Assembly: GCA_021296345.1 (NCBI GenBank)
Contig: JAGWAN010000001.1
Location: 1 to 64,000, forward strand
DNA: 64,000 nucleotides
Origin: Acidimicrobiia bacterium
GTDB lineage: Bacteria > Actinomycetota > Acidimicrobiia > Spongiisociales > Spongiisociaceae
Direction: 5' to 3'
Below the pieces are notes generated by a model, which was not told the DNA's origin, did no database searches, and saw only the letters and a program-made list of their open reading frames with translations. Position 1 is the stretch's first letter; each line of letters starts with the position of its first letter. Made by a program: the position numbers and the translations under genes. Below are positions 6,788 to 23,277 of this stretch, one piece after another.

Positions 6788-7849
6788 ATGCCACATGTGA
6801 TGACGGTGCGGGGCCCGATCCTCCCGTCCGAGCTGGGCCCGACGATGACTCACGAGCATGTCTTTCTGGATGGTCGCCATGCCTGGGGTCCTTCCGAAGA
6901 GATCCTCGATACCGAAGCCGGAACGCGGCCGTTCGAAACCAGGTTGGCGGGTCCGAGTCGCTGGAACCAGTCTGCTTACCGGAGCAACCTCGCCCAGACC
7001 TCTCGCGACGACTACCAACTGATCTCCGACGAGGTTGGGGAGTACGTACGGGCCGGCGGCGGAACCATCGTGGAGTTGACCGTGATCGGTCTCAACCCGG
7101 AGCCCGAGGCGCTGGCGCGGCTCTCCGAAGACTTGGATGTACACATCGTGGCCGGGGCAGGCTTCTATGTGAGCGCCTTCCATCCATCGTGGGTGGCGGG
7201 GATGAGCCTCCCGGACCTGACGGCTTTTCTGCGGAAGGAGGTTGCCGAGGGCATCGGAGGCACACGGGTCCGACCCGGCATCATCGGTGAGATCGGCACT
7301 TCCGAAACACTGTTCGACGTCGAGGAACGGGTACTGAGGGCATCCGCTCGGGTAGCGGTCGAGACCGACACCCCGATTAACGTTCATTGCCACCCTCCGT
7401 CCCTCGAAGTCGTGCAACGTATCTTGGACATCCTCGAGGAGGAGGGCCATCCACTCGACCGGACCTCCCTTTCCCACCTCGACGAGATCACGGACCTCGA
7501 CTACCACCGCGCCGTCCTCGGTCGAGGCCCGCTGATCGGGTTCGACAGCTTCGGTCAGGACGGCTATTTCGAGCCGACATGGAAGTCGAAGAGCGACCAG
7601 GCCAAGCTGGAGACCATGCTCGCCCTGGTCGAAGCCGGCTTCGAGAATCAACTGCTGATGTCGCAGGACATGCACAAGAAGCACTACCTGCTCCGCTACG
7701 GGGGCCTGGGGTACAACCACGTCCTCACTCGGGTCGTTCCCCGGATGAAGGTCACCTACGGCGCCGACGACCGGCTGATCGAGAAGTTGCTGGTCACCAA
7801 CCCGACCCGGCTCCTGACTCGCAACACGGATTCCGGGCAGCCTTCGTGA
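6788..7849 (+). CDS. Phosphotriesterase-family hydrolase (PHP/lactonase-like)
   Basis: 353 residues, TIM-barrel amidohydrolase superfamily. Metal-site motifs are THEHVF (HxH, residues 21-26), GIIGEIGTS with Glu in place of the carboxylated lysine of true phosphotriesterases, NVHCHP, SHLD and a late SQD. The Glu bridge is typical of the PHP/lactonase-like subgroup, so a lactone or related ester is a likelier substrate than an organophosphate. A strong GGAGGAG precedes ATG 6788. The dimethylformamidase-like gene follows after 79 bases. A paralogue is at 46033. Confidence 0.85.
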   Translation: MPHVMTVRGPILPSELGPTMTHEHVFLDGRHAWGPSEEILDTEAGTRPFETRLAGPSRWNQSAYRSNLAQTSRDDYQLISDEVGEYVRAGGGTIVELTVIGLNPEPEALARLSEDLDVHIVAGAGFYVSAFHPSWVAGMSLPDLTAFLRKEVAEGIGGTRVRPGIIGEIGTSETLFDVEERVLRASARVAVETDTPINVHCHPPSLEVVQRILDILEEEGHPLDRTSLSHLDEITDLDYHRAVLGRGPLIGFDSFGQDGYFEPTWKSKSDQAKLETMLALVEAGFENQLLMSQDMHKKHYLLRYGGLGYNHVLTRVVPRMKVTYGADDRLIEKLLVTNPTRLLTRNTDSGQPS

Positions 7850-7928
7850 ACTGCCTCGGCCCCACCAGCCTGGGGGGACCCGGGAGCGCTGGGGCACTTG
7901 AGACCGGCCCGGAGTTGTCGACGAGGGG

Positions 7929-9521
7929 GTGGGGTTGCTCGTCGGGTATGTGAGCGACGAGTTCTACGTCTCGATCCCCGGAGTTGAGCTCGAATTCACG
8001 CGGGGTGACGCATCGGTTGCCGCGCGTTCGAGGGCATCCGGGTCGGTGCACACGGATGTCGAACCTGGCGAGTACCGCGTCTATCTCAGCCGTGACGGGT
8101 TCACGCCGAAGTGGGTCGACATGGAGGTTCGGACCGGGACCATCCACCACTTCCGGCTCCTCTCCGACAAGGTCAGCGGCTACGTGTGGCCGAAGTGGGC
8201 CAAGTCGGGCGCCACGGGCCAGGTGCGGCTCCACTCGCCGCGTGATGCCATCGTCAGCCTCTGGCGCTACGGATGGGAGCGCCAGTTCATAACCGAACTC
8301 GGTCACTTCTCGGACGAACCTCGCGGGGCCTACAGCCAGATCCTGCCGGATGGGGATGTGAGCCAGACCGGCGTCCGATGGAGCGACCACGGATATGCCT
8401 ACCCGGAAGTGGACCCGAGGGTGTATGTCGAAGCACCCCGACGATCGGGCCTCTACTACTTCCACGCCAAGGATGCGACAGGTGCGTTCTTCTCGTTTCC
8501 CTGGATCGTGGCGCCTCGGGAGCCGCAACAGAAGATCGCGGTGTTGGCATCCAACATCACATGGAACGCCTACAACCATTACGGAGGCCGGAGCAATTAT
8601 GTGGCAGCGATCACTCTCCCCCGCCGGCCCTACTTCAACTTCCGGCAGGAGGACGTGTATTACACCGACCCGGCGCTCCAACCGTGGACCGCGGATGAGT
8701 ACGACCCGCTGTCGTTCGACCGTCCCGAACCGCTGAACATGACGGACGAGCAGGGGTCCATCACCGATCCCATGGAGCGGCGCGGCGAGGAACACGTGGC
8801 GCCGGCCGAATGGCGCCTGCTGGGATGGCTGGAGCGCGAAGGATTCGACTATGACTACTACGCCGAGACCCAACTTCACTTCGATGAGATGCCGCTTGAG
8901 GAATACGAGGTGCTGGTCATCAGCACCCACCCGGAGTACTGGTCCCGACGGATGTATGACCGGGTGAAGCGCTGGGTCTTCGACGGCGGAGGCAAGCTGA
9001 TGGTGCTGGGCGGTAACAGTCTGAACTGCGAGGTCGAGTTCCTCGACGAAACGACGATGTCCGTTCGTAACGAGGACCACCACAAGAGGCCACCGGATTT
9101 TGAAAGCCGTTTCGGCACCCGGCACGAATCCGAGGCCCACCTGACTGGAGTGGTGACAACCCACACCGGCTACGAAACCGGCGCTCCCTACCGGGTGGTG
9201 GACGCGTCCCACTGGGCTCTGGCGGGAACCGGGCTCGCTGAGGGAGACCGATTCGGGACCGAGTCGCTGGACCGGCGAGCTCCGGGCGGGGCGTCAGGTC
9301 ATGAGACCGACAAGAGGACGCCCTCGTCGCCGGAGGGACTCCAGCTCATCGCCAAGGGCACCAACCCCGATGAGGGCGGGGCCGAGATGGTCTACCACCG
9401 AACGGTCAGCGGCGGCGAGGTGTTCTCCGTCGGCTCAATCTCCTACACGTGTTCCATTGCAGTGGACGAGATGGTGTCGAAGGTGACGCGCAATGTGCTG
9501 GAACGCTTCCTGGGCTCGTAA
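7929..9521 (+). CDS. N,N-dimethylformamidase large-subunit-like protein
   Basis: 530 residues. The first 120 form a beta-rich domain; the rest resembles the catalytic region of DMFase large subunits, with ASNITWNAYNHYGGRS (about residues 207-222) and LVISTHPEYWSRRMYDRVKRW followed by GGGKLMVLGGNS. The HPEYW glutamate is likely one of the iron ligands described for that family. DMFase normally has a separate small subunit; none is seen next to this gene. The natural substrate may be another amide. Start GTG 7929 is tentative; TTG 7935 or GTG 7950 are possible. It probably shares a transcript with the gene at 6788. Confidence 0.75.
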   Translation: MGLLVGYVSDEFYVSIPGVELEFTRGDASVAARSRASGSVHTDVEPGEYRVYLSRDGFTPKWVDMEVRTGTIHHFRLLSDKVSGYVWPKWAKSGATGQVRLHSPRDAIVSLWRYGWERQFITELGHFSDEPRGAYSQILPDGDVSQTGVRWSDHGYAYPEVDPRVYVEAPRRSGLYYFHAKDATGAFFSFPWIVAPREPQQKIAVLASNITWNAYNHYGGRSNYVAAITLPRRPYFNFRQEDVYYTDPALQPWTADEYDPLSFDRPEPLNMTDEQGSITDPMERRGEEHVAPAEWRLLGWLEREGFDYDYYAETQLHFDEMPLEEYEVLVISTHPEYWSRRMYDRVKRWVFDGGGKLMVLGGNSLNCEVEFLDETTMSVRNEDHHKRPPDFESRFGTRHESEAHLTGVVTTHTGYETGAPYRVVDASHWALAGTGLAEGDRFGTESLDRRAPGGASGHETDKRTPSSPEGLQLIAKGTNPDEGGAEMVYHRTVSGGEVFSVGSISYTCSIAVDEMVSKVTRNVLERFLGS

Positions 9522-9588
9522 GGCCGGCGCCCGGTAGCCAGAACCTGGCTGCTGGACAGACTCCTGATATCCGGGATACGACTAGAGG

Positions 9589-9618
9589 GGCCGAGGTTCG
9601 CCCCCAACCTGCCTCGGC
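9589..9618. terminator. Possible terminator hairpin between convergent genes
   Basis: GCCGAGG and CCTCGGC, with nested AGGTT/AACCT pairing, can form a hairpin in the 152-base gap between convergent genes ending at 9521 and 9674. There is no T-run, so the call is weak. Confidence 0.3.
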
Positions 9619-9673
9619 GCTGTGCGGTGATGCGACGCTGACCGTCATACCCGGTGCGGTCAATACCGAGACG

Positions 9674-10576
9674 TCAGGACTGAAACTCGGGGAAGGGCTG
9701 CTTCCAGTTCTCGTAGATGATCCCGTCCTGAATCTCGGTGGGAATAGTGGGGAGCTTGGTGCCTTCAACGATGTCGTTGATTCCCCGCAATCCGTTTATG
9801 ACGTTGGAAAGAGTGCCGGACGGATAGTCGGAGGCAAGAAGCAGCTTGTGGGTCACGCCGTACTCCATCGCGGTCACCATTGCCTGCCAGTAGCGCCACG
9901 GCCGGTAGTGAACGGCAGAGATGTCGGCGTACATGTTGGGCGTCTTGCGTATCAAGGCGATCACATCCTCCTCCCAGGGGTGGCCGAGGTGAGCGATGAT
10001 CATTCGCAGATCGGGAAATGCCATGGCCACGTCCTCGAGCAGCAGGGGTAGCGCCCAACGGAGCCGGGCATTGGCCGGGAAGGTGGTGCCCTGGTGCCAC
10101 ATGATCGGTATTCCCAGCTCGGAGCATCTCCGGAAGAAGGGCCAGTGACTGCGGTCGGTCGGGTCGAAGTGCTGGTAGGTAGGACCGACCTTCAGCCCGC
10201 TCAGTCCGAGATCGGTAACGCAATGGTCGAGTTGGTCGATCGCGTCGTCATCAGCCGGGTTGACCGACGCCCACCCGATCAGCTTCTCGGGATGCGACGC
10301 GACGTACTCGGCAATCAACTCCTTCGGGACCGAGATCCCGGTCGGTCGGGCGCTCATGCCGAACACCACCACCTTGTCCGCCTGCTGGGCCGCCTCCCAG
10401 TGATCCTGCGGTCGCGAGTCGTAGGAGTGGAGGTCGAGGCGGGCGGCATGTACCTCGCCGCCCGAGTGCTGCAATTTGACGAGCTTCGAGGCGAGGGCCT
10501 CGCGGGCGGTCTCCTCGCTGATGTGATCCGGGTACCACATTATGTGGCTATGGACATCGACGATCATTGGCCGCAT
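9674..10576 (-). CDS. Amidohydrolase-2 family protein (ACMSD/lactonase-like)
   Basis: 300 residues with the metal-site motifs DVHSH (HxH), MWHQGTTF, IAHLGHPW and LLASDYPS in barrel order. The family contains lactonases for L-fuconolactone-type products and decarboxylases; the Gfo/Idh dehydrogenase four bases upstream favours lactone hydrolysis. A close paralogue is at 14977 (shared stretches GLK-GP-YQHFDPT and HQGTTF). ATG 10576 was taken as start; ATG 10567 (MIVDVH) is equally possible. Confidence 0.8.
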   Translation of the reverse strand: MRPMIVDVHSHIMWYPDHISEETAREALASKLVKLQHSGGEVHAARLDLHSYDSRPQDHWEAAQQADKVVVFGMSARPTGISVPKELIAEYVASHPEKLIGWASVNPADDDAIDQLDHCVTDLGLSGLKVGPTYQHFDPTDRSHWPFFRRCSELGIPIMWHQGTTFPANARLRWALPLLLEDVAMAFPDLRMIIAHLGHPWEEDVIALIRKTPNMYADISAVHYRPWRYWQAMVTAMEYGVTHKLLLASDYPSGTLSNVINGLRGINDIVEGTKLPTIPTEIQDGIIYENWKQPFPEFQS

Positions 10577-10580
10577 CCTC

Positions 10581-11594
10581 TCACACCACGCACTTCCGGC
10601 CGGTCTCTACGTAGACCGGCCGGCCCGTGGCCAAGGACCGATCGAGTGCCAGGGCCACCTCCAACGCCGCCCTGGCATCTTCAAGGCTCACCGGCCAGTC
10701 CCGCAGCCCACGTACAGTCGCCAGGAAATGCCGGTCCTCGGTAGCCACGATCCCCGTCGCGGTTCCCCCGACTTCGTACTGGCCGCCGGTTCGCAACCAC
10801 TTCGCTCCCTCGAGGGTGTACACCATGGTCACTGGGTCTCTCATCTCCACATAGGCAGCGCCCTCGGTCCCGAAGACCGCCAGCCGGTAGTCCGCACTGA
10901 GCGCGGAGTCGGAGTTCATGATCCAGTTGAACTCCACGACTCCCACCGCACCTGTCGCGAAACGTATGGTCCCGATAACGGCGTCCACTGCGCCTTCCCC
11001 GAGCGTAGATGTCTCGGCCGACATCGCAAACACCCGCTCCACCGGTCCGGCCAACCAGCGAAACAGATCGAGATCGTGAACACCGACCTCGGCAGCGAGC
11101 GTTGTCCGGTTGAAGAGCATCCGACCCTCGAAGTCAGGAACGTTGCGCCGGGCCGACAGATGGACGGGGGTTCCTATCCCTCCCGACGCGACCATGTCAG
11201 CGAGCGCGACGTAGTCGGGATCGAAACGCATCGTGTGTCCCACGGCCAACCTGCCGCCCGCTCGCTTGGCCACCTCGATCATCAGGTCGGCTGTCTCCAG
11301 GTTGTGAGCGATCGGCTTCTCGCAAAAGACGAAAAGACCGGCAGCGAGACAGGCCTCGACAACGGGAAGGTGTTGATCCTGGGGAGTGCAAACGAACACG
11401 GCCTCGAGTTGGTACCTACCGAGTAGTTCGTCGAGGCTTGTCAACAGGGGGACACCACCGGGCAGGCGTTCGACCGCACCGGGATCGGTATCGCAACATG
11501 CCAGGAGATGGGCTTCTGGTAGAGCCTCGAGCACTTGGACATGAGAACTCCCCATCATGCCGACGCCGACTACCGCACAACGGACCGGCTTCAC
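10581..11594 (-). CDS. Gfo/Idh/MocA-family oxidoreductase
   Basis: 337 residues. N-terminal Rossmann domain with VVGVGMMG, then FCEKPIAHN (the EKP motif) and GVHDLDLFRWL in the C-terminal alpha/beta domain. Such enzymes oxidise sugars, inositols or sugar acids with NAD(P). GTG 11594 is preferred to upstream ATGs because GGAGGAGG sits five bases before it and the Rossmann strand begins at once. It is followed by the amidohydrolase-2 gene and is divergent from the gene at 11775, with a shared intergenic region holding an operator-like repeat. A paralogue is at 29231. Confidence 0.88.
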   Translation of the reverse strand: MKPVRCAVVGVGMMGSSHVQVLEALPEAHLLACCDTDPGAVERLPGGVPLLTSLDELLGRYQLEAVFVCTPQDQHLPVVEACLAAGLFVFCEKPIAHNLETADLMIEVAKRAGGRLAVGHTMRFDPDYVALADMVASGGIGTPVHLSARRNVPDFEGRMLFNRTTLAAEVGVHDLDLFRWLAGPVERVFAMSAETSTLGEGAVDAVIGTIRFATGAVGVVEFNWIMNSDSALSADYRLAVFGTEGAAYVEMRDPVTMVYTLEGAKWLRTGGQYEVGGTATGIVATEDRHFLATVRGLRDWPVSLEDARAALEVALALDRSLATGRPVYVETGRKCVV

Positions 11595-11707
11595 GTCCAC
11601 CTCCTCCCGAGCAGGACCACTTACACGCATGCCGACTCCGGAACGGAAGGACCGGAATCCGTGACGTCCGGTTGACGGCAAGGATCTATTCTCCGATAAT
11701 CCGCATA

Positions 11708-11733
11708 CGCAACACGGTTGCGATACGCGCAAC
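11708..11733. promoter_or_regulatory. Three-half-site operator, copy A
   Basis: The half-sites CGCAAC (11708-11713), GTTGCG (11717-11722) and CGCAAC (11728-11733) have spacers of 3 and 5 bases. Each neighbouring pair is an inverted repeat. The same layout with the same spacers occurs at 19088-19113. It lies 41 bases before ATG 11775 in a divergent promoter region. Likely ligand is the IclR-type regulator at 18118; this is inference. Confidence 0.6.
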
Positions 11734-11774
11734 CATACCGACCCGGGCGAAACGGACCGACGATGGGAGCTTCC

Positions 11775-12698
11775 ATGGATGCAGGCGCGCTCCTTCGGCG
11801 CCAAGGCTATCGACCCACGAGCTCCCCTTCTGATAGCGGCAGACGGTTCCCGGACGGCGCCGAGTTCCGGATAGAGATTCCCAGCGTCGAAGGACCACGC
11901 GTGCTCGAAGCTGCCGTCAACGAAGCCGACCGATACGACTTGACCCTCAACCGGGTATCGCAAGGCAGCGGCGGCATGCTGCTTGAGGAAGCGGAACTCC
12001 GCGAGATGGCTGCCATCGGCGCTTCGGTCGGTCTTGAGGTCTCGCTATTCACAGGCCCCCGGGCCGGCTGGGACATCGGGGTGTTCAGCAGGTCGAATGC
12101 CGGAGGTGGCCAGTTCGCTCAGCTCCGAGGTCTCCGCCAACTCGGCTACGCGGTGGCGGACATCCTGCGCGCCACCGAAGCGGGCATTCGCAGCTTCCTG
12201 GTGGGCGACCTGGGTCTGCTGAGCGTTGTGACACGCATGCAAGATGAAGGAGAGCTACCGAGCGAGACGGTATGGAAGATCTCGGCCTACATGGGCGTAT
12301 CGAATCCGGCCACGATTAAGACTCTGGAGGAGATGGGCGCAGGAACCGTCAACATTCCCGCCGACGTGACCCTCGAACAGCTGTCCGAGATCCGCGCCTC
12401 TGTGTCCCTGCCCGTCGATCTCTACCTCGAGACACCGGACGGCATGGGCCCCGTCGTCCGTGGTCACGAGATCGCCGACTTCGTAGCGGTCGGAGCTCCC
12501 TTGTACGCGAAGATGGGGCTGGCCAACGCCGCCGGCGTGTACCCGTCGGGCGGGCATGTGGTCGACGTCGCCATCGCCAACGCCCGCGAGAAGGTCCGGC
12601 GGGCGGCCATCGCCCTAGAATGGTTGCGCCGGATGCGGCCCGCGTCCGTTCAATCCAAACCGCACGCCGAAGGGCTCGGTGTACCGGTCGCCCCCTAG
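11775..12698 (+). CDS. TIM-barrel-like protein, possibly U32-peptidase-like
   Basis: 307 residues, no signal peptide or membrane segment. Repeated alpha/beta units (YDLTLNRVSQGSGG, LEVSLFTGPRAGWDIG, SFLVGDLGLLSVV, AGTVNIPADVTLEQL, PVDLYLETPDGMG) look like a TIM barrel, and the layout recalls U32-family proteins. The characteristic U32 signature was not recognised, so the function is open. ATG 11775 follows GGGAG at six bases. It carries the operator copy A upstream and is separated from the creatininase gene by a terminator-like hairpin, so it may be transcribed alone. Confidence 0.55.
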   Translation: MDAGALLRRQGYRPTSSPSDSGRRFPDGAEFRIEIPSVEGPRVLEAAVNEADRYDLTLNRVSQGSGGMLLEEAELREMAAIGASVGLEVSLFTGPRAGWDIGVFSRSNAGGGQFAQLRGLRQLGYAVADILRATEAGIRSFLVGDLGLLSVVTRMQDEGELPSETVWKISAYMGVSNPATIKTLEEMGAGTVNIPADVTLEQLSEIRASVSLPVDLYLETPDGMGPVVRGHEIADFVAVGAPLYAKMGLANAAGVYPSGGHVVDVAIANAREKVRRAAIALEWLRRMRPASVQSKPHAEGLGVPVAP

Positions 12699-12791
12699 GA
12701 GGGTGGTTCAGAATGACGATTGCTGCGGCCGTCACGAGCTTGACCGGGAAACCTCATGGTTGAGTGGCAGCCCGCGGGGGCATCTCCAACC

Positions 12792-12811
12792 GTCCTCCTT
12801 GGGAGGACTTT
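12792..12811 (+). terminator. Rho-independent terminator-like hairpin
   Basis: GTCCTCC (12792-12798), loop TTG, GGAGGAC (12802-12808), then TTT. The seven-pair stem lies 94 bases after the stop of the gene ending at 12698 in a 254-base gap. The T-run is short. Confidence 0.5.
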
Positions 12812-12952
12812 ACAGCGATGACTATCGCCTCGGTCTCACCACCCCCTGAATGGCGGTCGCGCTGCCGGAGGACCAAGCCCGGTGGGATCGCCGGGCCCTC
12901 TTCCGGAGCGGGCAGTCCGGCTGCCGGCTAAAGGCACCGGAAGGGAGACTCT

Positions 12953-13720
12953 GTGACCCGGATCCTGTTCGCCGAGTTGACCCGCGAGGAGTCGCGCACC
13001 ATCGCCCGCGACGGCGTCCTCATCCTGCCGGTCGGCGCCACCGAACAGCACGGGCCTCATCTGCCGGTGGGAACCGATTCGATGGGTGCGGAGTACGTGG
13101 CTCGTGCCGCGGCCGCGGCTCTGGCTGACCGGTTCCCGGTGGCCGTCGCCCCGACGCTGTGGTACGGATCGTCGCCGCATCACCTTCCGTTCGGAGGAAC
13201 GATGTCCCTGGATGCCGGGACGTTCCTGGCTGTGTTGATGGATCTGGGACGCTCGCTGGCCAGGGCCTCATTCCGGCGGTTGTTCATCGTCAACGGCCAC
13301 GGCGGGAACCACGAGCTGATCGGGATAGCTGCCCGCGACCTCGCTCTCGAAGAAGGCCTCGAAGTCGCGGCATGCTCGTGGTGGGCCATGGCGCACCGGG
13401 ATCTGGCCTCGGCCGGCGCCGCCGACATCGGGCGTCTCCCCGGTCACGCCGGCGCGTTCGAATCATCCCTCGTCCTGGCTCTGGACACCGCCCTGGTGCG
13501 GGAGCCACGCCCGCACCGCCCCGACTGGTCGTCTCCCCTCGTCGGCACCGTGGACGCTCCGGTAAGGATCGAGCGGCCCGGGAGCTGGGAGGCCACCGAT
13601 GGGTTCACCGACAGTCCCTCCAAAGGTACGGCTGAGTTGGGACGCACGTTTCTCAGGATTGGAGTCGACAAGCTGACCGAGGCCGTGGCCGGCTTCTACG
13701 AGGAGTCGATCACGGATTGA
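12953..13720 (+). CDS. Creatininase-family amidohydrolase
   Basis: 255 residues. Motifs GATEQHGPHLPVGTDS (metal ligands Glu, His, Asp), VNGHGGNHE and GHAGAFESS are those of the creatininase family, which opens cyclic amides or cleaves small amides with two metal ions. GTG 12953 is preceded by AAGGGAGA. It starts a run of same-strand genes (M20-like, amidohydrolase-2, two enolase-superfamily proteins) with short gaps, probably one operon for a nitrogen-containing compound. The substrate is not creatinine with any certainty. Confidence 0.82.
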   Translation: MTRILFAELTREESRTIARDGVLILPVGATEQHGPHLPVGTDSMGAEYVARAAAAALADRFPVAVAPTLWYGSSPHHLPFGGTMSLDAGTFLAVLMDLGRSLARASFRRLFIVNGHGGNHELIGIAARDLALEEGLEVAACSWWAMAHRDLASAGAADIGRLPGHAGAFESSLVLALDTALVREPRPHRPDWSSPLVGTVDAPVRIERPGSWEATDGFTDSPSKGTAELGRTFLRIGVDKLTEAVAGFYEESITD

Positions 13721-13760
13721 GGCTTCACGCCGGGGCCACGTAACACTCGAATGGAAAGGG

Positions 13761-14939
13761 ATGAGAATGACGGACCTAATCGAGCGCGCGTCGAACGCCG
13801 TCGACACGCGCCGCGTGGTGGACCTGACTCGCGCCCTGTGCGGTGTCCGGTGGGATGATCCCCAAGCCGAGGGACCTCGCGCCGAGATCATCGCCGGAGC
13901 TCTGGAGCAGGCCGGTGTCGATGTCCACATAGCGGACGTGGTCGAAGGGCGACCGAACGTGATCGCCCGCGTGCCGGGCGAAGGCAAGCGTCCGCCACTG
14001 GTGCTGCAGGGCCACATCGATGCCGGCATCTACCCGTCCGGATGGACCCGCGATCCCGACGATCCGTGGGAGGATGGCGGCAAGTTATATGGAGGCGGTA
14101 TCACCGACATGCTCGGTGGTGTGGCGGCCATGGTGGCCGCGGTGGAAGCCGCCCCGGCTTTCGGTCCCCTTCCCGGAGACCTGTTGCTGCACGCCACCAT
14201 GTACCACAACGGCAGCGGTCTCGGGGCGAAGTACGCCCTGAAGACCGAAGGCCCGTCCGAGGGATATGGGATCTGCGGAGAACCGTCCGATCTCGATATC
14301 CACACCGCCAACGGCGGCGCCTTCAAGTTCGAGATCCGCCTCACCGGCACATCCCAACACGTTTCCAGGATGGAGTCGGCCGTAGACACGCTCGGCCCGG
14401 CGGTCGCCGTCTACGACAAACTCGTCGACCACCGGTTCGCGCATGAGGCCGAAGCCCGCCTACCCGACCTTCCACGCTTGTTGATCGGGGAGCTGCATGC
14501 CGGTGAAGCACCCGCCGCGGTGGCCGAGTCCGCCACCATCCGCGGCGACCTTCGCTACGTGCCCGGAATGAACAGGTCGGAGGTCCGCCAGGAAATCCTC
14601 GACATCGTCGAGAGCGTGACCCCGGACGACGTCGGTCGGCGGGTGCGCATCATCGGGCTTCACCAGCCGTTCCTCGGCGCCACCGCCGGACCGCTCATCG
14701 ACGCCATCACTAGCGCCCAGACCCGGATACTCGGTAGCGTCCCGCGGGTGACGAATGAGCTTCCCGGTCAGTCCTTCGTCACCGACGCGGCAGACCTGGT
14801 CGCGGCCGGTCTCGAGACCGTCGTGTACGGCGTAGGCAGCTGGTACTACGCCCCGGACGAGTGGGTCTATATCGACCATCTGGCCGGCTCGGCACGCGTG
14901 TACCTGGCCGTCGCAGCCCTGCTCGGGGCCGATTCATGA
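13761..14939 (+). CDS. M20-family peptidase-like protein lacking key catalytic residues
   Basis: 392 residues with the overall layout of M20 deacylases. GHID (about residue 86) and GGGITDMLGG hold the usual His and Asp metal ligands, and GEPSD supplies a later acid. The usual Glu-Glu pair is absent: where relatives read DEE, this protein reads MYHNGSGLGA (about residues 152-161). Near the C-terminus the usual His of the HxxxE motif is Tyr (YYAPDEWV). It may use a different chemistry or act as a binding protein. It sits between creatininase and amidohydrolase-2 genes. Start ATG 13761 or the in-frame ATG 13767. Confidence 0.8.
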   Translation: MRMTDLIERASNAVDTRRVVDLTRALCGVRWDDPQAEGPRAEIIAGALEQAGVDVHIADVVEGRPNVIARVPGEGKRPPLVLQGHIDAGIYPSGWTRDPDDPWEDGGKLYGGGITDMLGGVAAMVAAVEAAPAFGPLPGDLLLHATMYHNGSGLGAKYALKTEGPSEGYGICGEPSDLDIHTANGGAFKFEIRLTGTSQHVSRMESAVDTLGPAVAVYDKLVDHRFAHEAEARLPDLPRLLIGELHAGEAPAAVAESATIRGDLRYVPGMNRSEVRQEILDIVESVTPDDVGRRVRIIGLHQPFLGATAGPLIDAITSAQTRILGSVPRVTNELPGQSFVTDAADLVAAGLETVVYGVGSWYYAPDEWVYIDHLAGSARVYLAVAALLGADS

Positions 14940-14976
14940 CCGTGGGCTCCGGGACAGCGGCCTGAGGGCAGCACGA

Positions 14977-15819
14977 ATGGTCGTCGACTGCCACACTCAC
15001 GTCGGGGCATTGGATCATTTCAGCCCCAGCTTCGTCGCCGAGATGGTGCGAGCCTGGGGTGAGATGAGTTGGCCTGGTGACGACCTTGCCGCCCACCAGT
15101 CCGCTATGTCCGGGTTGGACAGGGCGATCGTCGTTGCCATGGACGCTCCCGCTGTGGGAATGGTCGTACCCAACGAATACGTCAGCTCCTACGTCGCCAC
15201 CGATCCCGAGAGGCTGATCGGTTTCGCCAGCGTTGACCCCAACCGGCCTGACGCGCTTGACCGGTTGACGCTGGCGGTGGAGGACCTTGGGCTACGAGGG
15301 TTGAAGCTGGGGCCCATCTACCAGCATTTCGATCCTACCTCGCCACCCGCCATCGAGTTGTTCCGGCACGCCGAGCATCTCTCCCTGCCCGTCCTGTGCC
15401 ACCAGGGCACCACGTTCGTCTCCGACGCCCCGCTCAGATGGGCGAGGCCGTTCCTGATCGACGACGTGGCCCGCGCCTGCCCCGATCTGAAGCTGTTCAT
15501 CGCCCATCTCGGGCATCCATGGTGTGAGGAGACGATGGCGGTGATCCGCAAGCACCCCAACCTGTATGCCGACGTTTCGGCACTTCACACGCGACCCGTG
15601 CAGCTGTACATGGCCTTGCGTTCTGCCATCGAGTACCGGGTTACGGACAAGTTGCTGTTCGGCAGCGACTTCCCGTTCGCCACCGCCGCCGAGACCGCAG
15701 AGGCATTACGGTCCGTCAACGACGCGGTCGGAACGGGCTGGCCTCCGATACCTGCCGAGGTCATCGAGGGGATCATCCATCGCCCGGCGTTACAGATCCT
15801 CGGGCTCGAAGAAAAGTGA
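14977..15819 (+). CDS. Amidohydrolase-2 family protein (ACMSD/lactonase-like)
   Basis: 280 residues with DCHTH (HxH), LCHQGTTF, IAHLGHPW and LFGSDFPF, the complete metal set of the family. It is a paralogue of the protein at 9674; the two share the central GLK-GP-YQHFDPT block and most of the C-terminal half. In the operon it precedes two enolase-superfamily genes, which suits a lactonase feeding an acid dehydratase. ATG 14977 lies 37 bases after the M20-like stop. Confidence 0.82.
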   Translation: MVVDCHTHVGALDHFSPSFVAEMVRAWGEMSWPGDDLAAHQSAMSGLDRAIVVAMDAPAVGMVVPNEYVSSYVATDPERLIGFASVDPNRPDALDRLTLAVEDLGLRGLKLGPIYQHFDPTSPPAIELFRHAEHLSLPVLCHQGTTFVSDAPLRWARPFLIDDVARACPDLKLFIAHLGHPWCEETMAVIRKHPNLYADVSALHTRPVQLYMALRSAIEYRVTDKLLFGSDFPFATAAETAEALRSVNDAVGTGWPPIPAEVIEGIIHRPALQILGLEEK

Positions 15820-15838
15820 TCTGCCACAAGGAGCACCC

Positions 15839-16957
15839 ATGAGGATCGAGCGAATTCGCACCACCCCGGTCGCCGTACCGATGGTCCGGGAACGGATCAT
15901 CTCGGGGTCCGGCGGCACCCACAACCGGTCTCCCTTCCTCATCGTCGAAGTAGACACCGACGAAGGCATAGTCGGACTCGGCGAGGTGTCATGCACGCCC
16001 ATCTGGAGCGGCGAGGACTCCACCACGGCAGGTCATGTCATCGACTCGTACATCGGACCGGCCGTGGTGGGGCTCGACCCCCGGTCGCCGGAGGCGGCGT
16101 GGCCTGCCATCGATGGCGCGATCACCGGTCACAACTTCACCAAGGCTGCCGTGGAGATGGCGCTCTGGGACATCGCCGGCAAGGCAGCCGGCCTGCCCGT
16201 GCACAGGCTGCTCGGTGGTCCCGTGATCCCAGAGATCCCCACCAAGTTCTCGGTGACCGGGACCACTCCGGAACATGCAGCCAAGGTGGCTTCGTGGGCA
16301 GTCGGCCAGGGATATACGGCGATGAAGGTCAAGGTAGGCCGAGGTGGAGTGGCTGCTGATGTCGCACGGGTCACTGCCGTTCGTGAAGCCATAGGCGATC
16401 GGATCGTGCTCGGGGTCGATGCGAATTGTGGATGGGACCGGTCCGAAGCGATTCTCGCCGGACGCCGCCTGGCGGCGCTGGGTGTCTCTTTCATGGAGCA
16501 GCCGGTATCGGCTCGAGACTACGCCGGTATGGCAGAAGTCCGGCGAAGGGTCGAAATGCCGGTGGTAGCAGACGAATCGGCCGGCACGCCCGAGGATGCG
16601 GCCTTGCTGGCGGTCAACGAATCGTGTGACATCCTCTCCATCTACGTAGGCATGTCCGGTGGTATCGCTCCGGCTCGGCGGGTGGCGGCGGTTGCGACCT
16701 CTTTCCGGCTCGGATGGACCATCGGAAGCAACCTGGAACTGGGCATCGCTCTCGCCGCACACATGCACATCGGGGTGTCAACTCACGGGCTCGACCCCCG
16801 CGTCCCGGCCGACATCCTGAGCCCCTTCTACTACGAGGGCGACGTGATCGCCGAGCCCCTGGACGTGCGGGCCGGTGTCGCTTTCGCGCCGGATGGGCCG
16901 GGGCTGGGAGTGCGGCTGGATATGGATGCGCTCGACAGATACCGGGACGATCGTTGA
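15839..16957 (+). CDS. Enolase-superfamily protein, MLE type (first of pair)
   Basis: 372 residues starting at ATG 15839, which has AAGGAG six bases upstream. N-terminal capping domain, then barrel motifs KVKVG (KxK), VDANCGW (Asp), FMEQPV (Glu) and VADES (Asp, metal site). The second catalytic lysine of muconate-lactonizing-type enzymes, normally in an IK-x-x-K-x-GG context, is Tyr here (SIYVGMSGG). The metal site is therefore intact but the base on the other face is changed. Likely role is dehydration, epimerisation or cycloisomerisation of an acid. Confidence 0.82.
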   Translation: MRIERIRTTPVAVPMVRERIISGSGGTHNRSPFLIVEVDTDEGIVGLGEVSCTPIWSGEDSTTAGHVIDSYIGPAVVGLDPRSPEAAWPAIDGAITGHNFTKAAVEMALWDIAGKAAGLPVHRLLGGPVIPEIPTKFSVTGTTPEHAAKVASWAVGQGYTAMKVKVGRGGVAADVARVTAVREAIGDRIVLGVDANCGWDRSEAILAGRRLAALGVSFMEQPVSARDYAGMAEVRRRVEMPVVADESAGTPEDAALLAVNESCDILSIYVGMSGGIAPARRVAAVATSFRLGWTIGSNLELGIALAAHMHIGVSTHGLDPRVPADILSPFYYEGDVIAEPLDVRAGVAFAPDGPGLGVRLDMDALDRYRDDR

Positions 16958-16991
16958 ACCCTGATCCTGCCCGCGGCGGGAGTCCGGCCGC

Positions 16992-18107
16992 TTGAAGATA
17001 GCGCGGATGACCGCGACCCCGGTTGAGGTCCCCCGGTTGGCGCGCCTCCTCCCCAAGACAGCCCACGGCCAGGTTCTGGCGAGCCGCTACGTGGTTCTGG
17101 AACTGGAAAGCAACTCGGGCGTGGTGGGAATCGGTGAGGTCACCTGCTCGCCGGCATGGAACGGCGAGGAGGCGTTGGAAACATCCCGGCTCCTATCAGG
17201 CCCGCTCCAATCGGAACTCGTGGGGGCCGATCCTCTCTCATGGGCCGATGTCTCCACCCGATTCGACCGGACGATTCACGATCGCCCCTTTCTCCGAGCG
17301 GCGGTGGAGATGGCGTGCCTCGATCTCGCCGCCCGACACTTCGACGTGCCTGCATATGTCCTTCTAGGTGGCGCCTACCGAACCCGGATCGCCACCAAGA
17401 TCGTCCTGCCGGCCAGGGAGATCGAAACCGTCCGCGCAATGGCCGGCGGGTTGCTCGGGCTCGGCATCACGACGCTCAAGGTCAAAGTCGGGCTCGAGGT
17501 TGAGGGAGACATCGCCCGAGTCGCCGCCGTGAGGGAGACCCTCGGGCCCGATGTGAGGATCACGGTGGACGCCAACGAAGGTTGGTCGCCGGAAGAGGCG
17601 AGGTCGGCGGTGGAACGGCTGGATGGGCTCGGCGTGGTAGCGGTCGAGCAGCCACTTTCGCGTCGAGCCTGGGAAGCCTCGGCAGCTCTACGGCGTATGA
17701 CCGGCATGGCTGTTATGGGCGACGAGTCCATATGGACCCGGCGTGATGTAATCGAAGCTGCGCGAACAGGGGGCTTCGACACCGTGAACCTTTATCCGGG
17801 CAAGTGCGGTGGGCTACGAAGGACGATCTCGATGGCGGATCTGGCGCGTGGGCTCGGACTCGCCGTCTCGTACGGCTCCAACCTGGAACTCGGAATCGGA
17901 AGCGCTGCCATGGCTCATGCCGCAGCAGCGACCAGGCAACTGAGCCCCGTGGTTCCCGCCGACCTCATCGGCCCCCTCTACTTCGAGTCGACCATGGTCG
18001 CGGATGCCGGATTCGTACGGTGGGATGGCGCCGACGTGCCTCCAGGTACCGGTCTCGGTATACAACTCGACCGGAAGGCGCTGGAGCGTTACCGGATCCC
18101 GCTCTGA
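16992..18107 (+). CDS. Enolase-superfamily protein, MLE type (second of pair)
   Basis: 371 residues from TTG 16992. Motifs KVKVG, VDANEGW, VEQPL and MGDES mark the barrel. As in its upstream neighbour the second-face lysine position is Tyr (NLYPGKCGG); the lysine two residues before GG is retained. The two proteins are clear paralogues and lie 34 bases apart, so they may act on stereoisomers of one substrate or form a mixed oligomer. The gene ends ten bases from the convergent IclR stop. Confidence 0.8.
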   Translation: MKIARMTATPVEVPRLARLLPKTAHGQVLASRYVVLELESNSGVVGIGEVTCSPAWNGEEALETSRLLSGPLQSELVGADPLSWADVSTRFDRTIHDRPFLRAAVEMACLDLAARHFDVPAYVLLGGAYRTRIATKIVLPAREIETVRAMAGGLLGLGITTLKVKVGLEVEGDIARVAAVRETLGPDVRITVDANEGWSPEEARSAVERLDGLGVVAVEQPLSRRAWEASAALRRMTGMAVMGDESIWTRRDVIEAARTGGFDTVNLYPGKCGGLRRTISMADLARGLGLAVSYGSNLELGIGSAAMAHAAAATRQLSPVVPADLIGPLYFESTMVADAGFVRWDGADVPPGTGLGIQLDRKALERYRIPL

Positions 18108-18117
18108 CTCATCGCAG

Positions 18118-18861
18118 CTACCGCGGATGTAACGCAAGCGAGGGATTCATCGCCTCTACGCGTTCGAGCATGGCGGGGACCAGCGTCATCATCTTTTCCC
18201 TGGTCCATCGGTAAGACGGTCCGGTAATCGACAGCGCCACAGCGTCGCGGTTACGCCCGAGGCGGAGCGAGAACCCCAGACAACATACTCCAACGCGCCC
18301 TTCCTCGAAATCGAGGCTGTACCCGCGCTCCTTCGTACGAGCCACCTCTGCTCTGAGAGCCGCCTCGTCGGTAATCGAGAACTGTGTCAATGCATCCAAG
18401 TCGAGCCGGCTGACAACGGAATCCAGTTGGTCGCCGGTGAGTGCCGCTAGATAGGCCTTGCCTAGGGCCGAGGCGTGTAGAGCATCCCGGGTGCCGAGTT
18501 CACAAGAGACGCGCAGTGGGTTATGGCTCTCCACCCTCCCTACGATCAGCATCCGCTGACCGTGTGGTACGGCGATATGCACGGTCTCTCCGGACATTGC
18601 CCGGAGATCCTCGGCAAGCTGCAGCGCCTCTTGGAAGGAAGTCCCCGCTGCTGCCGCCTGACCCACAGCGATCAGATGAGGGCTGACCATGTAGGTCCGC
18701 CGATCATCCAGCACCATCCAATCAAGTTCCCGGAGGGTGTTCAACAACCGGAGGGCATTCGACTTGTGAACACCCAGCTCCTGAGCCACATCATCCAGCC
18801 TTACTCTGCCCTCGCGGGCCACGAACTCGACTGCGCGAACGACCCTCGCAACAGTTTCCAT
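18118..18861 (-). CDS. IclR-family transcriptional regulator
   Basis: 247 residues. An N-terminal winged helix (RLDDVAQELGVHKSNALRLL, residues about 21-40) is followed by the IclR effector domain with LHASALGKAYLAAL and CCLGFSLR. Such regulators bind small carboxylic acids or sugars. ATG 18861 is preferred to GTG 18870 because GAAGGGG lies upstream at suitable spacing. It is divergent from the PotD-like gene at 19158 and convergent with the enolase pair. It is the only transcription factor found in the 6-31 kb catabolic region, so it is the likely ligand for the operators at 11708 and 19088. Confidence 0.88.
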   Translation of the reverse strand: METVARVVRAVEFVAREGRVRLDDVAQELGVHKSNALRLLNTLRELDWMVLDDRRTYMVSPHLIAVGQAAAAGTSFQEALQLAEDLRAMSGETVHIAVPHGQRMLIVGRVESHNPLRVSCELGTRDALHASALGKAYLAALTGDQLDSVVSRLDLDALTQFSITDEAALRAEVARTKERGYSLDFEEGRVGVCCLGFSLRLGRNRDAVALSITGPSYRWTREKMMTLVPAMLERVEAMNPSLALHPR

Positions 18862-18927
18862 CAGTACCACCCCTTCTGCGCCAGGAAGCCCGCTGTGGAA
18901 GGTAACCGACCGAGGCGGCGACCACGA

Positions 18928-18942
18928 GTTCGGCTACCGAAC
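18928..18942. promoter_or_regulatory. Inverted repeat upstream of the IclR gene
   Basis: GTTCGG, spacer CTA, CCGAAC. A perfect 6-3-6 inverted repeat 67 bases before the IclR start. It may be an autoregulatory site; it differs from the CGCAAC operators. Confidence 0.4.
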
Positions 18943-19087
18943 AAGACCCGATCCAACCTGCGCCCGCACCTGATTCACCGGAGCACATTCCTGGGGCCCG
19001 CACCGGACTGAGCGGACACGGCAACCCGTGATACCGACCCCACCCGACCACTTGACACCTTCGATTGATCATGACGATAATGTTCAA

Positions 19088-19113
19088 CGCAAAGCAGTTG
19101 CGCTCAGCGCAAC
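19088..19113. promoter_or_regulatory. Three-half-site operator, copy B
   Basis: CGCAAA (19088-19093), GTTGCG (19097-19102) and CGCAAC (19108-19113), with spacers of 3 and 5 bases exactly as at 11708-11733. It lies 44 bases before ATG 19158, nearly the same distance as copy A from its gene. It probably controls the importer operon. Confidence 0.62.
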
Positions 19114-19157
19114 ATCATACACAGGTGGAGAAGGTCTTCTCCACGGAGGAGGACTTG

Positions 19158-20351
19158 ATGGCGATACGAGGACGAGCGATCACCGCGGTCATGGCCCTCT
19201 GTCTCGTGGCAGCCGCATGCGGCAGCGACGAACCTGCGTCTACCACGGCGGCGGCGACCACAGCCGCACCCACCACAGCGGCGGCCACCACCGTGGCAGC
19301 TGCCGAAGAAATGGGCGCGTGCGACGGGGCCACTTTGAGCTTCATAGGCCTTGATGGCGAAGCCGGAGAGGTGGAGCTCGAGGCCTGGCGGGAGGAGAAC
19401 AACGTCTCTCTCGAGACCAACTGGCCAGGTAACTGGCAGCAGTTCGTCACCGCGATCAAGGTCGGCGATGTCTACGACCTGGCCACCATCGCCTATTTCC
19501 AGGCACAACGTCAGATCGAGGCCGGTCTCTTCCACCCGATCGACACCAGCCGGCTCGAGAACTGGAACACGATGTTCGCGGGTCTGCGCGAGAACGTATC
19601 GCTGCGCGGCGCCGACGGCCAGGTATACGGCGTGCCCATAGCCTGGGGCGACGGTCCGTTCATATATCACCCTGAACGAGTCGCCAATCCGCCCCAGTCG
19701 GTCCTGGAACTGTCCGGGCCGGAGTGGGAGGGCCGCTTCACCATGTTCGATTCGCCCATCTGGCTCTTCTCGATGCTCGCGGTCGGACTCGGATTCGACG
19801 ACGGGGTCGGCGAGAAGACCTATGTCACAGATGAGCAGATGCTGACGATCAAGGACGAGGCGATCAAGATCGTTAGGAACGCAGCCGGCTTTACAAACGG
19901 TTACCGGGACGCAACCGATACGATCGTCGCCGGCGACTCGGACCTCAACCTGGATGGCTGGGAAGCCATGCTCACCTGGGCAGAAGAGCAGGGCGAGACC
20001 CTCGCCTTCGACTTCTTCGTGGAGTCCGGCGGAGGGGGCTGGTGGGACGGCCTTGCCATACCTGTCACCGCGGACGATATCGACTGCGCCTACGAGTACA
20101 TCGACCTGATGATCTCCGATGAGATCAACGCGCAGGTCGGCGAGAACCTGGTGTCTGGTGTCGTGAACGAGGTGTCGGCCACGCTGGCGGGTCCTGGCGC
20201 CCAGATCTACGACTACGACCTGGTACGACCGGAAGTGCCGGAGGTGTCGTTCCGGGACCAGTCGCCACCCGAGGACGACGAGGCTGAGGAGGGCATCGCA
20301 TCATTCTCCGACTGGCTCAACACCTGGGAAGAGGTCAAGGCAGAACTCTAA
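19158..20351 (+). CDS. PotD/spermidine-type ABC substrate-binding lipoprotein
   Basis: 397 residues. A signal peptide ends in the lipobox LVAAACG, and a Thr/Ala linker of about 25 residues follows. The rest is a type II solute-binding protein of the polyamine/iron/thiamine class. ATG 19158 is preceded by ACGGAGGAGG. It is the first gene of the five-gene operon 19158-24200. The ligand may be an amine, amide or small organic acid; the operon's amidase favours an amide-containing compound, but that is inference. Confidence 0.87.
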   Translation: MAIRGRAITAVMALCLVAAACGSDEPASTTAAATTAAPTTAAATTVAAAEEMGACDGATLSFIGLDGEAGEVELEAWREENNVSLETNWPGNWQQFVTAIKVGDVYDLATIAYFQAQRQIEAGLFHPIDTSRLENWNTMFAGLRENVSLRGADGQVYGVPIAWGDGPFIYHPERVANPPQSVLELSGPEWEGRFTMFDSPIWLFSMLAVGLGFDDGVGEKTYVTDEQMLTIKDEAIKIVRNAAGFTNGYRDATDTIVAGDSDLNLDGWEAMLTWAEEQGETLAFDFFVESGGGGWWDGLAIPVTADDIDCAYEYIDLMISDEINAQVGENLVSGVVNEVSATLAGPGAQIYDYDLVRPEVPEVSFRDQSPPEDDEAEEGIASFSDWLNTWEEVKAEL

Positions 20352-20384
20352 GCAGACTCGAACTGAGCTTGTACGCAACAAAGA

Positions 20385-21317
20385 GTGGCTGATCTAGCGA
20401 CAGTCGACAACCGAGAGCCTCCGCGGATGAACGACCCTGCGTCGTCGGTCGCGGGGGCTCTCGTCCGCAAGTGCCGCCGCGACCGGGTGGCGGCATGGCT
20501 CCAGTTGCTACCGGGATCGACGTTCTTCATCGCGTTCTTCCTGGTGCCCCTGTTGGGCCTGCTGGCGATGAGCTTCTTCCGCCTCGTCGACTTCGAGCCG
20601 GTGGCGGACTTCACCCTTTCCAACTATGCCGAGGTTCTGACGAGCAGCGTGCATGCCCGGCTGGCGCTACGCACGGTCCAAGCGGCGACGATCGTCACCG
20701 CCATCGTCCTCCTAATCAGCTTCCCCTTCGCCTACACGCTGAACTTCGTCTTCCGTAAGCACCGCCAGCTGCTGTTCTTCCTGGTCCTGGTCAGCTTGTT
20801 CGGCGGGTACATCGTCCGGATATACGCATGGCGCAGCATCTTGGGTAACCAGGGGGTGATCAACCAGGGTCTCATGGCGCTAAGCATCGTGGACGAACCC
20901 GTCAGGGAACTTCTCAACAGCATGTACGCGGTGGGAGCGTCGTTGGTGAATTTCCTGATACCGCTCGGGGTGCTCCCAATCTATGCCGCGATGCAGAACG
21001 TGTCGCCGGGAATAGCCGAGGCGGCCCGCGACCTCGGTGCGTCGAGGTTGCGCGCTGCTCGCCAGATCGTGCTCCCCCTGTCGATGAGAGGAGTACGGGC
21101 AGCCGCCGCATTCGTCTTCATCGCCACACTGGGTGAGTGGGTCACACCGCGACTGCTGGGAGGGACCAAGGATCTTCTGATCGGGAACCGGATCGAGTAC
21201 TACTTCGGGGCCTCACTGGAGTGGCCCGCCGGCGCCGCCCTCGCCATCACGCTGATCGTCGGGATGGGCGTCGCCGCGTACGCGATCATGTCCCTGATGA
21301 AGCGGTTGGCAAGATGA
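20385..21317 (+). CDS. ABC transporter permease (PotB-like)
   Basis: 310 residues with about six membrane segments, the first at about residues 42-65 (TFFIAFFLVPLLGLLAMSFF). The EAA coupling loop EAARDLGASRLRAARQIVLP lies at about 209-228. It pairs with the permease at 21314, whose ATG overlaps this stop. Start GTG 20385 gives a 40-residue cytoplasmic lead; ATG 20427 would shorten it. Confidence 0.88.
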   Translation: MADLATVDNREPPRMNDPASSVAGALVRKCRRDRVAAWLQLLPGSTFFIAFFLVPLLGLLAMSFFRLVDFEPVADFTLSNYAEVLTSSVHARLALRTVQAATIVTAIVLLISFPFAYTLNFVFRKHRQLLFFLVLVSLFGGYIVRIYAWRSILGNQGVINQGLMALSIVDEPVRELLNSMYAVGASLVNFLIPLGVLPIYAAMQNVSPGIAEAARDLGASRLRAARQIVLPLSMRGVRAAAAFVFIATLGEWVTPRLLGGTKDLLIGNRIEYYFGASLEWPAGAALAITLIVGMGVAAYAIMSLMKRLAR

Positions 21318-22150
21318 CCGCCACCACCGCATCGGCGCCGTCGCCCGGAGGTTGGCGGAGAGGGCTTGCCAAGCTTCGGCGGCGGCCGGTCGCTTCGGCA
21401 GGATTCGTCGGGGTGGTGATCGTCTACCTGTTCGCGCCCCTGATCGTGATGGTTGCCTTTTCTTTCAATTCGTCGCCCCGGCTCAGCTTCCCCTTCGCCG
21501 GCCTCTCGCTGCGCTGGTACGAGGAGATCTTCACCGACACCCTGGTACTCCGAGCCTTCCGCCGAAGCCTGCAGGCCGCGGTGGTGACGGCCGGAATCAC
21601 CGGGGTGCTGGGACTCTTAGGTGCGCTGGGAATCCTGAAGATCGCGAAGCGCGCCAGGGGGTTCATCCTGGCCATATCTGCAGCACCGCTCGCAGTACCC
21701 GGGCTCCTCTTCGCGATCGGATTGGCGATCATGTATCGACAGATAGGCATCGAACGCTCCATATGGGCTGCGAACCTGGGGCATGCGCTGATCGCCCTTC
21801 CGTTCGTCTTCCTGGTGGTCGGCGCGTCGCTCGAACGATTCCGCTTCACGCTGATCGAAGCAGCACAGGACCTGGGAGCGTCGCGCTGGCATGCGTTCCG
21901 GACGGTCACCCTCCCCCTGGTCCTTCCTGCCGTCCTGGGCGCGATGCTGCTCGCCGCGGCGATCTCCATCGACGACTTCGTGATCGCGTTCTTCACCGCC
22001 GGCCAGGACAAGACGTTGCCTCTCATCATGTACGGAAGGGTCCTGAAGGGCATCGACCCCACTTTGAACGCGATCGGTACAGTGATGCTCGTGTTGACGA
22101 CCAGCCTGGCATTCATGGCCGCCCGCCGTACCACGATCGGTGAGCGATGA
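21314..22150 (+). CDS. ABC transporter permease (PotC-like)
   Basis: 278 residues, starting at ATG 21314 in an ATGA overlap. About six membrane segments; the first is FVGVVIVYLFAPLIVMVAFSF, and the EAA loop reads EAAQDLGASRWHAFRTVTLP. It forms the heterodimeric channel with the protein at 20385. Its own stop overlaps the ATPase start at 22147. Confidence 0.88.
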   Translation: MTATTASAPSPGGWRRGLAKLRRRPVASAGFVGVVIVYLFAPLIVMVAFSFNSSPRLSFPFAGLSLRWYEEIFTDTLVLRAFRRSLQAAVVTAGITGVLGLLGALGILKIAKRARGFILAISAAPLAVPGLLFAIGLAIMYRQIGIERSIWAANLGHALIALPFVFLVVGASLERFRFTLIEAAQDLGASRWHAFRTVTLPLVLPAVLGAMLLAAAISIDDFVIAFFTAGQDKTLPLIMYGRVLKGIDPTLNAIGTVMLVLTTSLAFMAARRTTIGER

Positions 22151-23277
22151 GCGACGTATCAAGATACACCGAACATCCTGCTATCCGCCTCGACGGGGTG
22201 ACCAAGCGGTTCGGCGCGGTTCTGGCCGTGGACGACGTGACCCTCAAGATCGAGGAGGGGGAGTTCTTTTCGTTGCTCGGCCCGAGTGGATGTGGCAAGA
22301 CCACAACCCTGCGGATGCTGGCCGGTTTCGAGACCCCCGACGAGGGCTCGGTATACCTGCGAGGCGAGGATGTGACGCTGGTCCAGCCCAACAAGCGGGC
22401 AACCAACATGGTCTTCCAGAACTACGAGTTGTTCCCCCATATGACGGTGTTCAACAACGTGGCATACGGCCTCAAGCTCAAGAAGGTTCCCAAGCGCGAG
22501 ATCACGGAACGGGTCAACGACATGCTCGAGGTCGTCGGTGTGGGCGGCCTCGGTAAGCGCGCCGCCGACCAGCTTTCGGGTGGTCAGCAGCAGCGGGTGG
22601 CCCTGGCCAGAGCCCTGATCAACCGTCCCGCCGTGCTCCTGCTGGACGAACCGCTCAGCGCCCTCGACGTGAAACTGCGAAAGCGTATGCAGTTGGAACT
22701 GAAGTCGATCCAGGAAACTCTCGGCACCACCTTCGTCTACGTAACCCACGACCAGGAAGAAGCTCTGCTGATGTCCGACCGGGTCGGAATCATGAACGAG
22801 GGAGTGCTATTGCAAGTTGCTGCGCCCCGCACCATCTACGAGCAGCCGGCCGACGACTTCGTTGCGGACTTCGTCGGGACTTTGAACGAACTCACCATCC
22901 GTATCGAGAAGGTCGAAGGAGAACGGGGCCTGGTTGCCTCCGGAGACCAGGAGAGGATCTGGATGGACCTGCCCGGCGGCGGGACCGTCGGGGACATCGT
23001 CCGGCTTGCGGTCCGCCCCGAAGCGCTACAACTCACGCCGCGCCGTGAATGGGATGGAAGCCCCGACCTGAGCCACACCAGCGGCACGGTCTCCGATGTG
23101 ATCTACCTGGGCCCCTTCACACAATTCCTCGTCAATAGCGAACGGCTCGGGAGGATGCTCAGCCAACGGGTGAGCGATGCCGAGGCAGCGGCGATCCGAC
23201 CCGGCATGCAAGTGATCGTCAGCTGGCACCCCGACACGGCATTCATGCTGGCCGGGCCTGCGGCTGACACTCGATGA
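22147..23277 (+). CDS. ABC transporter ATP-binding protein (PotA-like)
   Basis: 376 residues. Walker A GPSGCGKTT, signature LSGGQQQR, Walker B LLLDEPLSALD and switch VTHDQEEAL are all present. A C-terminal TOBE domain from about residue 280 is typical of PotA/FbpC ATPases and often regulatory. It is translationally coupled to its neighbours on both sides by four-base overlaps (ATGA). Confidence 0.92.
   Translation: MSDVSRYTEHPAIRLDGVTKRFGAVLAVDDVTLKIEEGEFFSLLGPSGCGKTTTLRMLAGFETPDEGSVYLRGEDVTLVQPNKRATNMVFQNYELFPHMTVFNNVAYGLKLKKVPKREITERVNDMLEVVGVGGLGKRAADQLSGGQQQRVALARALINRPAVLLLDEPLSALDVKLRKRMQLELKSIQETLGTTFVYVTHDQEEALLMSDRVGIMNEGVLLQVAAPRTIYEQPADDFVADFVGTLNELTIRIEKVEGERGLVASGDQERIWMDLPGGGTVGDIVRLAVRPEALQLTPRREWDGSPDLSHTSGTVSDVIYLGPFTQFLVNSERLGRMLSQRVSDAEAAAIRPGMQVIVSWHPDTAFMLAGPAADTR

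Follow-up and report, generated by a model that had tools for sequence, protein, structure and literature searches.

A conserved M20-fold protein with an altered two-metal site in an Acidimicrobiia operon

An operon of an Acidimicrobiia bacterium encodes an M20-fold protein that retains the full Zn1 ligand set of its relatives (H85, D116 and E174) and is altered at the base position and at both ligands that serve Zn2 only. The gene lies in the window, as we call the whole stretch of 64,000 nucleotides that was analyzed (Table 1). We give an even chance to the reading that the protein is a working enzyme in which the two-metal hydrolase site has been rebuilt, with a single metal, His149 as the base and an amide-type substrate. 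Under automatic annotation, proteins of this kind receive the name of ArgE/DapE deacylase or M20 peptidase. Here, selection has retained the substituted residues in seven related genomes within a fixed operon, so that the protein is probably a functional enzyme of changed chemistry and not a broken one. The protein is a caution against the homology-based transfer of M20 function, and the defined proteins, residues and operon provide a test case for the conversion of a two-metal hydrolase site.

Family assignment and metal-site residues

The window protein is full length, as the initial annotation had proposed, and its 392 residues include both M20 domains: Peptidase_M20 (PF01546; E=2.9e-14, 53.9 bits against a gathering threshold of 24.6) and M20_dimer (PF07687; E=1.5e-9, 38.2 bits against 21). 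Both Pfam families are also matched by its seven orthologues, that is, by 8/8 members of the family described below. Among PDB chains, a single-sequence search ranks E. coli ArgE first (E=3.4e-21), and a family-profile search ranks E. faecium DapE (7uoi) first. A plain ArgE or DapE label is ruled out by NCBIfam scores that fall far under the curated cut-offs (129.9 vs 217.6 for TIGR01910 and 114 vs 297.7 for TIGR01892). AlphaFold predictions for the window protein reached a pLDDT of 36 when it was modeled alone and 37 with four extra alignment rows, values too low for use; a search of viral contigs for additional rows found none. Residue correspondences were set by alignment to E. coli ArgE (7rsf) and E. 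faecium DapE (7uoi).

In ArgE, Zn1 is bound by H80, D112 and E169 and Zn2 by D112, E145 and H355, while E144 adjoins the metals and touches the ligand (PMC11270798). The structure of V. cholerae DapE has an equivalent set of metal ligands (PMC4012986). The ArgE segment ATADEETSMAGA aligns with HATMYHNGSGLGA of the window protein, with the A-D-E-E-T run opposite M147-Y148-H149-N150-G151, and hence Y148-H149-N150 in place of Asp-Glu-Glu. Nearer the C terminus, TLPHQVDEYV of DapE stands opposite SWYYAPDEWV, which places Y363 at the position of the late His. Alignment to solved structures therefore upholds what had been claimed from the sequence alone, namely that the catalytic Glu pair is absent, that a metal His is changed to Tyr, and that GHID and the bridging Asp (H85, D87 and D116) remain. 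The window protein and ArgE (7rsf, 8uw6) share the two-domain family, the Zn1 ligands, the dimer-domain His (H200, ArgE H195) and the Arg that contacts substrate in ArgE (R265, ArgE R264). They differ in the replacement of E144 by His149, of E145 by Asn150 (Asp in the orthologues), of H355 by Tyr363, and of the cross-subunit Asn (N245 in DapE, N251 in ArgE) by Ala.

It is possible, although in our judgment unlikely, that the protein is a catalytically dead M20 homologue, retained as a partner of the neighboring enzymes with a role in binding, sensing or structure. The loss of the base position and the Ala opposite the cross-subunit Asn would fit such a role, and pseudoenzymes are frequent across many families (PMC10211241). 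However, invariant Zn1 ligands, H200 and the substrate-contact residue R265 would be superfluous in a purely structural partner, and the changes in the pocket are to particular residues that have become fixed, unlike random losses. We favor an enzyme over a non-enzyme because the Zn1 set, His200 and Arg265 are kept and the pocket replacements are invariant.

Table 1. Features of the operon, the M20-fold protein and related loci. Coordinates are those of the window, except for the Group III genes, which are given in their own loci.
Feature	Coordinates	Strand	Basis
U32-peptidase-like protein, first gene of the operon	11718..12698	+	Pfam U32, E=1.5e-6
Creatininase-family amide hydrolase, metal motifs intact	12953..13720	+	Pfam, motif inspection
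Atypical M20-fold protein, start ATG	13761..14939	+	ORF of 392 aa, zero internal stops; Pfam domains
H85-I86-D87 (GHID); H85 corresponds to Zn1 ligand H80 of E. coli ArgE	14013..14021	+	Alignment
D116, bridging Asp (ArgE D112), retained	14106..14108	+	Alignment
Y148-H149-N150, replacing Asp-Glu-Glu	14202..14210	+	H149 invariant in family; N150 is Asp in 7/7 orthologues
E174 (GEPS), Zn1 ligand (ArgE E169), retained	14280..14282	+	Alignment
M20 dimerization domain, residues 183-290, H200 and R265 retained	14307..14630	+	Pfam, alignment
E333, invariant Glu in a loop insertion without counterpart in canonical M20; candidate relocated base	14757..14759	+	Role predicted
Y363, replacing the late Zn2 His (ArgE H355), family-invariant	14847..14849	+	Alignment
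Amidohydrolase_2 family enzyme, metal motifs intact	14977..15819	+	Pfam, motif inspection
Enolase-superfamily protein A, strand-6 Lys to Tyr, KxK and metal ligands retained	15839..16957	+	Pfam, alignment
Enolase-superfamily protein B, strand-6 Lys to Tyr	16992..18107	+	Pfam, alignment
IclR-type regulator	18118..18870	-	Pfam; synteny in 4/5 same-family neighborhoods
ABC importer (substrate-binding protein at 19065-20351, two permeases, ATPase)	19065..23277	+	Synteny
Group III M20 gene, locus L049	7914-9131		
Group III M20 gene, locus L058	4983-6206		
Group III M20 gene, locus L059	4983-6200		
Group III M20 gene, locus L057			
Group III M20 gene, locus L064			

Orthologues and residue conservation

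Six orthologues, 80-85% identical to the window protein, were found in a search of 15 genomes from the same bacterial family, and a profile search of 395 genomes of the class added one from another bacterial family (genome G614; E=1e-153, 58% identical). No further orthologue was found in 138 genomes of the order, and no other at E<=1e-50 among 222 genomes of the family of G614 and 396 genomes of the phylum. A wider contig scan with window-specific peptides, whose reach orthologues in other phyla could escape, returned only three close orthologues, all of them already in the set of six. Three of the orthologues come from metagenome-assembled genomes, two of which are labeled Acidimicrobiia.

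Chance can be excluded for H149 and Y363 because both are invariant in the eight sequences, the farthest of which is 58% identical. The Zn1 ligands, D87, H200 and R265 are also invariant across the family. G614 has His at residue 148, where the other family members have Tyr. At residue 150, the seven orthologues all carry Asp (GAC or GAT); Asn (AAC) occurs solely in the window, where it is a private one-base change of the GAC-to-AAC type. Because Asp150 occurs in every orthologue, the family signature read from the alignment is His-Asp...Tyr, without Asn. Of the His-Asn and Tyr replacements whose conservation the initial annotation had suggested examining, His149 and Tyr363 thus recur in 7/7 orthologues, while Asn150 is peculiar to the window copy. 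It may lower the activity of that copy, and it could still be an assembly or sequencing error.

No invariant Glu-Glu pair was found elsewhere in the alignment of the eight family sequences, and the relocation of an intact pair within the protein is accordingly rejected. The inserted loop contains one Glu that is invariant, E333, which could be a relocated base.

Other site-altered M20 groups

The window family (Group I) probably belongs to one cluster with three further site-altered M20 groups. In a motif-free tree from which the bridging column was also removed, and which included 5k8m and 7uoi as partial rows taken from printed HMMER alignments, all atypical groups, together with 5k8m, join with support of 98/93; in a 46-row set without 5k8m, the atypical cluster has 79/85. 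Support for the grouping is limited, and the cluster is only probable because long branches join several rows. The window family itself is recovered at 100/100. Within the cluster, an alliance of Groups I, III and IV receives 64/28, with alternative topologies at AU p 0.25-0.45, and a shared origin of Groups I and II for the His and Tyr replacements is neither supported nor rejected (AU p 0.31-0.45).

Group II (L019, L065-L068 and L076, from the same bacterial family as the window) is defined by SDHMG and by VYAADEN or VYSADEN. Like the window family, it has His for the base Glu and Tyr for the late His, but it carries Met at the position of the Zn2 Glu and has no inserted C-terminal loop. Group III is found on proteobacterial plasmids, with Roseomonas, Rhizobium, Microvirga, Terrarubrum and Sodalis as hosts, and reads GVSNMKAG, GELQGG and NTMPDER or NTMPNER. 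It resembles the window family in its dismantled Zn2 site, in the sequence H[LV]S[KR] at the position of the dimer-domain His, and in the insertion of a comparable C-terminal loop. It differs in that Asn takes the place of the bridging Asp, Leu stands at the position of the Zn2 Glu and the late His is Thr, with the base Glu kept (GELQGG). Where annotated, the Group III genes adjoin ABC transporter operons, and the annotation calls their products merely M20/M25/M40 metallo-hydrolases.

Group IV (L022 and L072; genomes G002 and G003 of the same bacterial family) is 5-nitroanthranilate aminohydrolase-like, and an insertion after the base Glu is common to L072 and 5k8m. 5-Nitroanthranilic acid aminohydrolase (5k8m-5k8p) is, like the window protein, M20-related, with an altered metal site and without the late His, and the two are joined by a profile match across almost the whole length (E=1.1e-9). 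At the motif places, however, it reads VVNCKGP and VCGEID, with Asn for the bridging Asp and the base Glu retained, whereas the window family combines a bridging Asp with a putative His base. The window protein, which has D116 and H149 in place of the Asn and Glu, is not an orthologue of this enzyme, and the aminohydrolase offers no direct mechanistic template for the window family. These data suggest a sizeable M20 cluster that lacks the canonical site yet is under selection, one crystallized member of which, the aminohydrolase, performs non-peptidase chemistry.

Metal content and proposed mechanism

In ArgE-type M20 enzymes, E144 is the general base. In the proposed enzyme, His149 would stand in for this Glu, and one metal would be bound at the retained Zn1 site, where it could activate water or polarize the substrate. 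The former Zn2 site, now Asp/Asn150 and Tyr363, may have been turned over to substrate binding or to the stabilization of an intermediate. A single-metal form is likely because one full metal site is present together with His149 at the base position, and it is plausible because ArgE crystallizes in a mono-zinc form (7RSF) with the metal at the same Zn1 site (PMC11270798).

Two metals could instead still be bound, with Asp/Asn150 and Tyr363 as Zn2 ligands and H149 or E333 as the base of a conventional amide hydrolase. Tyr is able to bind zinc in other metalloproteases, 7/8 family members have Asp at the position of the Zn2 carboxylate, D116 is retained, and the inserted loop supplies an invariant Glu in E333. 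We nevertheless consider a two-metal site improbable, given that the window copy carries Asn150, a poor ligand, that the base position and both Zn2-only ligands are altered together, and that the remaining groups of the atypical cluster also have no intact Zn2 site.

Selection, operon and substrate

The M20 gene is under purifying selection: by the Nei-Gojobori method, it has a dN/dS of 0.108-0.129 against five orthologues from the same bacterial family, similar to its operon neighbors (creatininase, 0.087-0.122; amidohydrolase, 0.079-0.098; enolase A, 0.049-0.100). Against G614, where dS is high, the ratio is 0.25-0.34. Gene order (U32-like, creatininase, M20, amidohydrolase, enolase A, enolase B) and orientation are fixed in 6/6 neighborhoods, comprising five genomes of the same family and G614. 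Gaps among the M20 gene, its neighbors and the last four operon genes are 19-40 bases. Downstream lie an IclR-type regulator in 4/5 of the same-family neighborhoods and ABC transporter genes in 5/5; in G614, a DapA-like gene follows the six-gene set.

These results bear on whether the unusual site reflects a decaying gene, a sequencing error or a misassembly. Asn150, present in the window assembly alone, would be in keeping with an error, but the ORF is intact, H149 and Y363 occur in seven orthologues, dN/dS is about 0.11-0.13 and the operon is conserved, and we regard this explanation as extremely improbable. Gene decay, which had already been thought unlikely from the sequence, is rejected by the orthologues, synteny and dN/dS.

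The neighboring creatininase, amidohydrolase and enolase-type genes had initially been described as intact in the residues examined. This is correct for the metal motifs of the creatininase and the amidohydrolase but not for the two enolase-superfamily proteins. In both, the KxK motif and the Asp/Glu/Asp ligands are present, and the strand-6 Lys, as judged against a Pantoea family member, is replaced by Tyr in 7/7 genomes examined, including G614. In enzymes of the muconate cycloisomerase type, this Lys is a catalytic residue. Given the conserved changes in the M20 protein, enolase A and enolase B, three proteins of the same operon therefore carry active-site alterations.

From its gene content, we infer that the operon serves small-molecule (amide) catabolism. 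An amide substrate is proposed for the M20 enzyme because its surroundings are rich in amide hydrolases (creatininase, formamidase, DMF-amidase-like and AstE/AspA-like proteins); a phosphotriesterase-family protein is also encoded around the operon. The substrate would be a small amide-type metabolite, handled in a pathway shared with the creatininase, the amidohydrolase and the two unusual enolase-superfamily enzymes, and the neighboring ABC importer may feed this pathway. More tentatively, and with doubt outweighing confidence, a His-base, single-metal M20 enzyme and two Lys-to-Tyr enolase-superfamily enzymes could together constitute an undescribed catabolic route of Acidimicrobiia with three rewired sites.

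Positions 6788-24200 hold a dense run of amide- and ester-hydrolase genes (phosphotriesterase, DMF-amidase-like, two Amidohydrolase_2, creatininase and formamidase) together with the ABC importer, and this region is a predicted catabolic island. The two Amidohydrolase_2 genes, at 9674-10576 and 14977-15819, lie on opposite strands and bracket the U32-like/creatininase/M20 stretch.
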